From NCBI GenBank assembly GCA_011503125.2, contig WWBZ02000062.1:992001-1056000 (forward strand): 64,000 nucleotides of DNA. The letters are read 5' to 3'. The position numbers and the translations under genes were made by a program. The notes under the pieces were generated by a model. It was not told the DNA's origin. It searched no databases and saw only the letters and a program-made list of their open reading frames with translations. Source of the DNA: Botryosphaeria dothidea (Eukaryota; Ascomycota; Dothideomycetes; Botryosphaeriales; Botryosphaeriaceae). This document shows positions 10,299 to 32,680 of the stretch, piece after piece; position 1 is the first letter of the stretch; each line of letters starts with the position of its first letter.

Positions 10299-13060
<2,762 letters not shown>

Positions 13061-31431: not shown

Positions 31432-32133
31432 TGTAGGGGACGAGAATGGCGAGTACGCGTCGCAAACATGGCATAGGCCCATGAAGATGCCCTCGTCACA
31501 CGGCTTTGTCTTCTGTGAGCTTGGCTGTGAGTTAATTAGCGATTGTGAGTATTGGAGCTAAAGAGGTGTCTTGTGTTCTTTGGCGTGCATGGAGACACTC
31601 GTATCTTTCACCATATTTAGACAACGCAACACCCCCTCTGAAAAAAAAAAAGCCACAGGAAGTAAAATGATCAGGTAAAGTAAACTGTAGAACCTGCTGT
31701 ACCATTCGTGCTGCTGTGCTATAACTATAACTAAATAGTCAAGTAAAGGATAAGCCTTGAGGATAGGTGCCAGAGTTTGGATTGCAGTTTGGCAGTACGC
31801 AGTCATAGGCATTATTTCCATGGAAGACCTCGAAGAACATGATATTGTTCGCAGCAAGATACTGCACACTTGGAGAGAAAGTCAAAGAAAAGACGTGTGT
31901 GCTGCAGTGGGGCGGCGTCCGGGCGTTCGGGCTTTCTCGCCTCAGCGGCACTCAACCGGCAAAAAAGCGGCAGCGCTCAACGCACATTCCTCTCGATATT
32001 CCACGATGGCTAGGTTGTTGTTTCACAGTTTGGCAGCCTTCCAAGTAGGACATGAAGAGCATGGTGGTTGTAGTACATGGTTGACACTGGCAAGTGGCGA
32101 CTTCAACAACCTTCCCCCAAGGAGGCCAACAGC
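31432..32133. other. Intergenic, no gene seen
   Basis: Between the permease and the tRNA gene. There is an 11-A run near 31640. No protein gene supported. Confidence 0.55.
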
Positions 32134-32140
32134 GGTCTTG

Positions 32141-32151
32141 TGGTCTAGTGG
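32141..32151 (+). promoter_or_regulatory. Internal Pol III A-box of the tRNA gene
   Basis: TGGTCTAGTGG fits the A-box consensus. It covers the D-arm just up to the first intron; the last G is supplied by the intron's own first base, so the element is intact in the DNA even though the D-loop is split. Confidence 0.75.
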
Positions 32152-32270
32152 TGAGTTCATCATCAATCATACCAATTCCACAACGCAATTCTAACAGGCA
32201 ACCAGGTATGATTCTCGCTTAGGGCACACCCTGAGTTGCTTGCGAGAGGCCCCGCGTTCGGTAAGTCATC

Positions 32271-32281
32271 CATTCGATTCC
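32271..32281 (+). promoter_or_regulatory. B-box-like sequence inside the third tRNA intron
   Basis: CATTCGATTCC matches 9 of 11 positions of the B-box consensus GGTTCGANTCC. The tRNA's own B-box (GTTCG / ATCC) is cut by the intron at 32260/32317, so this intronic copy is the best candidate for TFIIIC binding. In intron-containing fungal U6 genes the B-box likewise may lie in the intron. Confidence 0.6.
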
Positions 32282-32343
32282 TGATCGAGGAGCACCATCC
32301 ACTAACAGTGCCAAAGATCCGCGGCAAGACCCGTTGAACGATA

Positions 32344-32354
32344 TTTTTTTTTTT
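32344..32354 (+). terminator. Pol III terminator, 11 T
   Basis: A run of eleven T starts 12 bases after the tRNA discriminator base, the usual place for RNA polymerase III termination. Confidence 0.85.
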
Positions 32355-32680
32355 CAATCAGTTGTTGTTACTTTTGCAAATCCTTTTGCTCTGACTGTCA
32401 TTTCGATTGCAGACATCGGCCTACACGTAGGAGGTCCTCCGGTCTGCAATTTTGCTTGGTATCCGTTTCCCGGTGATGAAGCCCGGTAAGTGATACGTGC
32501 TAGCCGAGTATGGGAATTCGAACAAAGTTCGAGTGGGTCTTTATTTATGTCGAGACTCCATATCTTACTGTCAGGCGGGCCATTGATAAAGTTGATTGTA
32601 GGGGAACTCAATTATGATTATACATAAACCTGAAACTATTGCAAGCTGGAAAGACCCTGGAAGGACAGTATCTCAAAGAC
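32355..32680. other. Intergenic downstream of the tRNA, no gene supported
   Basis: Contains an isolated GTAAGT...CAAAG stretch (32486-32527) with an A-box-like TAGCCGAGTATGG and an inverted GTTCGAA, but I could not fold any second tRNA from it on either strand. Confidence 0.45.

Follow-up and report, generated by a model that had tools for sequence, protein, structure and literature searches.

A tRNA-Pro gene interrupted at three sites

The window analysed here, a 64-kb stretch (C58:992001-1056000) of an assembly of 51.68 Mb in 78 contigs, carries a tRNA-Pro(AGG) gene with three interruptions (32134..32332), all parts of which lie on the plus strand, recognised from the sequence, from the cloverleaf obtained after in-silico splicing and from three paralogues elsewhere in the genome. 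Exon 1 (17 nt; 32134..32150) runs from the 5' strand of the acceptor stem to G18 and is identical in the paralogues L059, L060 and L061. It is followed at tRNA position 18/19 by a spliceosomal-type intron of 55 nt (intron 1; 32151..32205; GTGAGT...CTAAC...CAG), located at a site shared with L060 and L061, where the interiors have drifted; its putative branch site CTAAC (32191..32195) places the branch A 11 nt from the intron end. The A box, TGGTCTAGTGG (32141..32151), has as its last base the first G of this intron. Exon 2 (19 nt; 32206..32224), which extends to position 37 and contains the anticodon AGG, and exon 3 (20 nt; 32241..32260), which ends with G57, were delimited from the sequence and the cloverleaf and flank an ordinary tRNA intron of 16 nt at the canonical position 37/38 (32225..32240), also present, with one base different, in L059, the copy without GT-AG introns. 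The second spliceosomal-type intron (intron 3; 56 nt; 32261..32316; GTAAGT...CTAAC...AAG) is inserted at 57/58, where it splits the B box, and its site is common to the tRNA-Ala genes L098, L116 and L132. Its putative branch site CTAAC (32302..32306) again lies with the branch A 11 nt from the intron end, and its interior includes a B-box-like element, CATTCGATTCC (32271..32281), which matches TTCRANYC and is without the consensus G53. Exon 4 (16 nt; 32317..32332), defined in the same way as exons 2 and 3, covers A58 to C73, and a run of 11 Ts (32344..32354) is the predicted Pol III terminator. The promoter boxes were identified throughout by comparison with the A-box and B-box consensus sequences.

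When joined, the four exons form a 72-nt tRNA in which a structure-only cloverleaf finder detects Watson-Crick pairs at 7/7 positions of the acceptor, 5/5 of the anticodon and 5/5 of the T-stem, with a D-stem of two Watson-Crick pairs and one G-U pair. The finder returned no cloverleaf from the unspliced locus and recognised a tRNA-Pro(AGG) with a 16-nt intron at 37/38 once the first and third gaps were removed. These results reproduce to the base what the first-pass annotation had described, namely the coordinates, the segments of 17, 19, 20 and 16 nt, the gaps of 55 and 56 nt and the stem pairs, and its expectation that a standard tRNA search would miss the gene was also borne out: ARAGORN, and Rfam at the gathering score, reported no tRNA in the 64-kb window as it stands. 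A permissive Rfam scan of 31900-32500 yielded three below-threshold matches, with tRNA not among them, and ARAGORN applied to the spliced window sequence called tRNA-Pro(AGG). Elsewhere in the window, the closest named relatives of a dipeptidyl-peptidase gene come from Elsinoe, at 72 and 70% identity, from which the fungus is probably a Dothideomycete close to Myriangiales, the lineage of Elsinoe.

A chance resemblance to a tRNA was rejected on account of the paralogues and of an excision scan, in which 4,513 candidate GT..YTRAY..AG segments were removed one by one from 624,942 bases on both strands. The window was scanned in overlapping pieces, with some bases counted twice; most of the other sequence had been picked for its tRNA genes, and 13 presumed mitochondrial-contig loci and L142-L147 were left aside. 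Considering the best hit of each class per sequence, a full cloverleaf emerged at 17 distinct tRNA loci, the window locus being one of them, and from no other piece of the 64-kb window.

Copies of the tRNA-Pro(AGG) gene

A genome search with the spliced sequence, in which every first-look candidate (4/4) was scored, recovered four tRNA-Pro(AGG) genes with identical exon letters. The two copies on C5 (L060 and L061) have the D-loop intron at 18/19 and are without the T-loop intron, which is unique to the window gene among the four, and the copy at C12:1451332 (L059) has neither GT-AG intron, only the canonical one. The C12 gene has a 32-nt 5' flank in common with the window gene (local score of 21 versus 7 to 10 for other pairs), which makes it probably the copy most closely related to that gene; in the downstream flanks, no Pro pair stands out by local score. 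Assuming homology of the D-loop introns, the gene on C12 would have lost its intron rather than being primitively intronless. The first-pass annotation had named a lack of spliced reads, combined with intact tRNA-Pro(AGG) copies supplying all decoding, as an observation that would speak against splicing of the window gene. One unsplit gene, C12:1451332, does exist, which bears out half of that objection and for this locus only, so that the case rests on the genome-wide set rather than on the window locus alone.

Split tRNA genes in the genome

At least 23 split tRNA genes of eight isotypes (Ala, 6; Phe, 5; Pro, 3; Leu, 3; iMet, 3; Val, 1; Glu, 1; His, 1), spread over eleven contigs, contain 27 GT-AG introns of 51-60 nt at non-canonical sites, and all but the three iMet genes (20/23) also possess the canonical tRNA intron. 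The GT-AG introns are inserted at 8/9 in His, 18/19 in Pro, 19/20 in Ala, 24/25 in iMet and Val, 25/26 in Leu, 30/31 in Phe and Glu, and 57/58 in the window Pro gene and three Ala genes, with the T-loop (57/58) introns numbering at least four. Similar inserts in one iMet and one Phe gene were first indicated by ARAGORN on the flanks of other tRNA loci, and matches to a B-box plus T-run pattern (94, versus 17 for the reversed control), together with the regions read, added Leu(CAG), Val(CAC), Glu(TTC), His and Ala(AGC). Forty stretches from the pattern searches were read; those left out were C2:831828, C12:3030555, C12:3137573, C12:3254383 and three places on C78, six of the seven lying in stretches seemingly redundant with ones that were read. 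The tRNA family search of the genome scored 63 of 1,497 candidates, which makes the number of split genes a lower bound.

Searches with exon sequences, in which no intron motif was required and all first-look candidates were scored (Pro 4/4, Ala 3/3, Phe 5/5, iMet 4/4, Leu 3/3), identified 17 interrupted loci (3 Pro, 3 Ala, 5 Phe, 3 iMet and 3 Leu), with GT-AG ends in 17/17. An unbroken copy would be expected as the top match in each such search; multiply split copies may escape. Indeed, three two-intron Ala genes were missed by the Ala exon search, so that the counts of split genes are again lower bounds. All five tRNA-Phe(GAA) genes found are split at 30/31 by a GT-AG intron of 51-58 nt in addition to the canonical intron. 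A GT-AG intron also splits all three Leu(CAG) genes found, at 25/26, and all six distinct Ala(AGC) genes read, at 19/20. The Ala(AGC) exon search of the genome gave no unbroken match, and a seventh Ala(AGC) pattern match (C12:3254383), within a redundant segment, lies outside the six. Under the standard decoding rules, tRNA-Phe(GAA) reads both Phe codons and, to our knowledge, no other tRNA does. For iMet and Pro(AGG), 3/4 genes each are split, and unsplit genes also exist for His (L123) and Glu-TTC (L096). Because of these unsplit genes, the split copies of Pro(AGG), iMet, His and Glu-TTC could be dispensable. The coexisting split and unsplit genes for Glu-TTC (L122/L096) and His (L124/L123) form natural pairs for expression comparison.

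After in-silico splicing, ARAGORN reported a tRNA at 21/21 loci, with the expected identity at 17/21; the remaining four received another identity because the canonical intron was placed differently. For L143 the cloverleaf finder gave one false alternative, with a supposed canonical intron of 87 nt. GT-AG introns are absent from many of the tRNA isotypes sampled, and all 25 of the 5S genes listed, from 47 of 2,704 candidates scored, are uninterrupted.

That the split genes arise from misassembly or contamination has a negligible probability in our estimation: the assembly does contain redundant stretches (C3 versus C12, C36 versus C78), but the loci are distributed over eleven contigs, intron sequences differ at shared sites and 27 introns exhibit these signals.

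Several other features were encountered in the course of the survey. Near-constant match offsets between C3 and C12 and between C36 and C78 suggest long near-identical segments, either haplotigs or a recent duplication. A tRNA-Ala 3' half with intact T arm and acceptor and no clear 5' half lies about 200 nt behind the split Ala gene L116 (C36:2124317). A dispersed repeat with the B box GGTTCGAATCCGGGTGGGGACTGTTGC and a T tail, found for example at C1:12703 (L063) and C6:859674, is possibly a tRNA-derived SINE, and L072, L101, L121 and L128 belong to a family of Pol III-like units with the B box GGTTCAAYYCC and a T run, three of which (L072, L121 and L128) also have an A-box-like TAGTGC.

Intron signals compared with mRNA introns

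A set of 25 introns was analysed for length and splice signals. They measure 51-60 nt (mean 55.2, s.d. 2.1), and their 5' sites are most often GTAAGT (11), followed by GTTAGT (4), GTAGGT (3), GTCAGT (3), GTGAGT (2), GTTCGT (1) and GTAAGC (1). GT-AG ends are present in 25/25, by construction at the loci found by GT-AG excision, not at the 17 exon-search loci. The tRNA sequence alone leaves one to five possible boundary pairs per locus, and a GT-AG pair was among them at 19/19 single-intron loci, the GT-AG option being given by construction for the loci detected by excising GT-AG segments. CTAAY occurs 6-22 nt from the intron end in 24/25 introns, compared with a mean of 1.9 and a maximum of 6 in 500 shuffles, and the branch A is separated from the intron end by 11 or 12 nt in 23/25. 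Two introns found later, of 57 nt with CTAAC and of 54 nt with CTGAC (the latter in iMet L147), bring the CTAAY branch site to 25/27 GT-AG introns overall; the T-loop intron of L132 has TTAAT at the branch site. With a GTRAGT-like 5' site, a CTRAY branch site and mRNA-like size and spacing, the GT-AG tRNA introns match the U2-type description.

The resemblance to mRNA introns of neighbouring genes, claimed in the first-pass annotation, holds for an intron of the chitin synthase gene (Pfam PF01644) at 12184..12233, which is 50 nt long (GTAAGC..CTAAC..AAG), has 11 nt between the branch A and its end, and on excision reduces the stops in that frame from 6 to 0. It is one of seven candidates in the window picked for a length of 45-75 nt and a GTAA or GTGA start, in which the branch A lies 6-11 nt from the end and excision clears one frame of stops in 4/7; the other six span 46-58 nt, with one frame cleared in 3/6. 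By itself the motif proves nothing, because GT..CTAAY..AG is not enriched in the window (20 occurrences versus 56 in mononucleotide block shuffles); its position within a tRNA does.

Self-splicing introns of group I or II were rejected, with no Rfam match in the window at the gathering score and a length of 51-60 nt that would be very short for them. Alternatively, the tRNA splicing endonuclease could cut outside its canonical position and remove the extra introns, their GT-AG appearance being incidental; passages of PMC4090602 describe ectopic introns removed in this manner in red algae and archaea, at similar positions such as 25/26, 30/31 and 56/57. Four pairs of the central helix are possible at 7/25 junctions in a relaxed register, but all four form in register at only 3/25 introns, and in a crude test the mean number of in-register pairs, 2.6 of 4, was barely distinguishable from the 2.5 obtained with exon 2 shuffled; bulge-helix-bulge introns were discarded on this shuffled-level pairing. 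Moreover, the GT-AG gaps are located at 8/9, 18/19, 19/20, 24/25, 25/26, 30/31 and 57/58, not at 37/38, and the endonuclease would leave the conserved 5' site, the CTAAY element and the 11-12-nt spacing unexplained. We regard this explanation as quite improbable compared with excision by the spliceosome.

Exon conservation and intron drift

The first GT-AG introns of the Pro, Ala, Leu and Phe genes have an overall identity of 0.51-0.70 within an isotype, and the interiors of intron 1 average 0.55-0.61, versus 0.49-0.51 for shuffled interiors. Among the exons, by comparison, those of Pro and of Phe are identical within the isotype and those of Ala are similar, and one of the three Leu genes, L103, has diverged (77%). 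Selection preserves exons and splice signals and hardly anything beyond them. Since splice signals persist at a shared site while the interiors of the paralogues are near random, intron 1 is not young. The three T-loop introns of Ala, with identities of 0.79-0.98, are younger or homogenised.

Nine distinct compensatory pairs were recorded in the stems, three each in iMet, His and Leu. The split iMet genes (all three with the same changes) and the split His gene each differ from unsplit relatives by three compensatory pairs, as do the Leu genes L103 and L105, both split, from one another; six of the nine pairs join exons on opposite sides of an intron. Glu and Pro show no stem change. Unpaired stem changes were absent from ten gene comparisons, partly by construction given that the finder requires full stems, and all 17 exon-similarity loci passed this full-stem finder. 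A tRNA-Lys(CTT) copy with a T-arm deletion (C58:2826308, L058) is apparently a true pseudogene, unlike the undamaged split genes.

These data bear on the two options that the first-pass annotation had left standing, processing of the pre-tRNA by the spliceosome or a very young dead copy. The latter is disfavoured by the compensatory pairs and by intron-1 interiors that have drifted to near randomness; the former gains support from splice signals kept despite the drift and from the observation that every Phe and Ala(AGC) gene found is split. A more general proposal would make all split copies pseudogenes, with unsplit genes doing the work, and there is indeed one unsplit gene each for Pro(AGG) and iMet, besides those for His and Glu(TTC), and most eukaryotic insertions in the D or T arm are presumed to mark pseudogenes, according to passages of PMC4090602. 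However, unsplit Phe, Ala(AGC) and Leu(CAG) genes were not found in the genome exon searches, and the nine compensatory pairs, the absence of unpaired stem changes in the ten comparisons (subject to the finder's full-stem requirement) and the retention of splice signals over drifting interiors all speak against decay, making this proposal highly improbable.

Pol III signals and an intron-containing U6 gene

The GT-AG introns are positioned differently with respect to the internal promoter. In Pro, the first G of the intron supplies the last base of the A box, which in Ala lies entirely within exon 1; the introns of the iMet, Leu, Val, Phe and Glu genes fall beyond the A box, and that of His is at its edge. 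TTCRANYC occurs inside three of the four T-loop introns that split the B box and in 0/21 other introns, the fourth T-loop intron (L132) containing a one-base variant of the B-box core. Furthermore, GGTTCAATTCC follows the tRNA at a distance of about 10 nt in each of the three Ala genes whose B box is split, and the other three Ala genes, in which the B box is intact, carry altered versions at that position, first spotted by eye. On this sequence evidence, introns that break the B box mostly bring a replacement. A run of at least four Ts is present within 60 nt downstream in 21/21 loci examined. The trailers of the Phe (L029, L142-L145) and Ala (L098, L116, L132-L135) genes extend for 33-48 nt before the first such run, versus 3-11 nt for other tRNAs; those of Phe contain hairpin-like CCAGTC..GACTGG-like elements, and those of Ala contain CTGG..CCAG or CTGG..CCGG-like elements around the B-box-like core.

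For the window gene in particular, intron 3 may have silenced transcription by splitting the B box, leaving only the other Pro copies active. Intron 3 is missing from these three copies, its B-box-like element is without G53, and no external TTCRANYC occurs within 60 nt downstream. On the other side, none of the 72 exon bases is damaged, the gene retains its T-run, and an intron occupies the identical site in three tRNA-Ala genes. We judge silencing of this one locus to be unlikely and prefer the reading in which it gives rise to a spliced tRNA.

The first-pass annotation had invoked fungal U6 genes as an example of Pol III transcripts with mRNA-type introns, and the analogy proved valid within this genome. 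The U6 gene at C18:304005 (L141) is interrupted by a 58-nt intron (GTAAGC..ACTAAC..CAG) which contains the B box GTTCGATCCC (GCCGTTCGATCCCGGC), and the U6 intron of S. pombe likewise carries a B box. An uninterrupted U6 gene at C3:1474133, with a near-copy on C12, has a B-box-like sequence downstream.

Discussion

We place the probability at roughly 0.88 that the window gene is a tRNA-Pro(AGG) gene from whose Pol III transcript the spliceosome removes the two GT-AG introns before the endonuclease takes the third. As judged from the A box, the B box and the T-run, Pol III would transcribe a precursor with both kinds of intron, in which U1, U2 and U6 would recognise the 5' site and CTAAY as they do in the mRNA introns of this genome. 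The spliceosome would then excise the GT-AG introns in the nucleus as lariats, and the cloverleaf could fold only after their removal, to be followed by end trimming, export and removal of the canonical 37/38 intron by the tRNA splicing endonuclease and ligase. The origin of the introns is a matter of speculation, for which reverse splicing followed by reverse transcription, the route proposed for U6 introns, would be our first guess.

Canonical nuclear tRNA introns (37/38) are represented by the 16-nt middle intron of the window gene, unlike the other two gaps, which lie elsewhere and have spliceosomal signals. An mRNA-type intron of the U6 gene is known in fungi, for fission yeast from passages of PMC10484740, and it is similarly a spliceosomal intron in a small-RNA gene transcribed by Pol III. 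Here, in contrast, the host is a tRNA rather than a spliceosomal RNA, many genes and isotypes are involved, and the intron is mostly found alongside a canonical tRNA intron, so that each such transcript would need both splicing machineries. Ascomycetes, lichen fungi in particular, have short spliceosomal introns in their nuclear rDNA that the host machinery removes, and one of these, of 57 bp, has been transplanted to yeast (PMC8527467). Such introns are likewise short, ectopic and spliceosomal and interrupt fungal genes for structural RNA, but their host is rRNA transcribed by Pol I, as opposed to tRNA transcribed by Pol III. In position, the introns resemble those in the tRNA genes of Cyanidioschyzon merolae, nucleomorphs and Crenarchaeota, which according to excerpts of PMC4090602 and PMC3978253 occupy non-canonical sites of the D arm, the anticodon stem and the T arm and may accompany a canonical intron; the same excerpts present a strikingly parallel tRNA-Pro of Pyrobaculum, interrupted at 25/26 and 56/57 as well as at the canonical site. 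Those ectopic introns are of the bulge-helix-bulge kind or are inserts of 3-24 nt with no known route of removal, whereas the introns reported here have GT-CTAAY-AG signals and bulge-helix-bulge pairing not above chance. Among the papers listed in searches of 5.39 million open publications, a set with few subscription papers, none announced in its title or the opening of its abstract that nuclear tRNA genes contain spliceosomal introns.

In genomes of this kind, tRNA annotation is liable to miss genes and to assign wrong anticodons, which may hide the phenomenon in other fungi. In this genome, scanning of the unspliced sequence miscalled iMet L003 as Cys, Pro L060 as Ile, Pro L061 as Ser and Phe L029 as Arg. 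The split genes would make it possible to ask whether spliceosomal action requires a cap, a long transcript or Pol II, how TFIIIC handles a split B box, how introns come to enter non-coding genes, with reverse splicing as a route, and which of nuclear and cytoplasmic splicing comes first.

Taking the gene set as a whole, we consider it likely that the spliceosome has become an obligatory tRNA-maturation enzyme in this Dothideomycete lineage, such that all cytosolic Phe, the main Ala and the Leu(CAG) tRNAs would be made only through the spliceosome and then the endonuclease, with introns that carry the Pol III box they destroyed, and with the unsplit Pro gene as a gene-converted fossil of a nuclear intermediate. 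Teaching keeps the introns of nuclear tRNAs apart from those of mRNAs, each kind with enzymes of its own, and here both would meet in one RNA. If this is true, translation in this organism depends on the spliceosome, and splicing load could limit the supply of tRNA.
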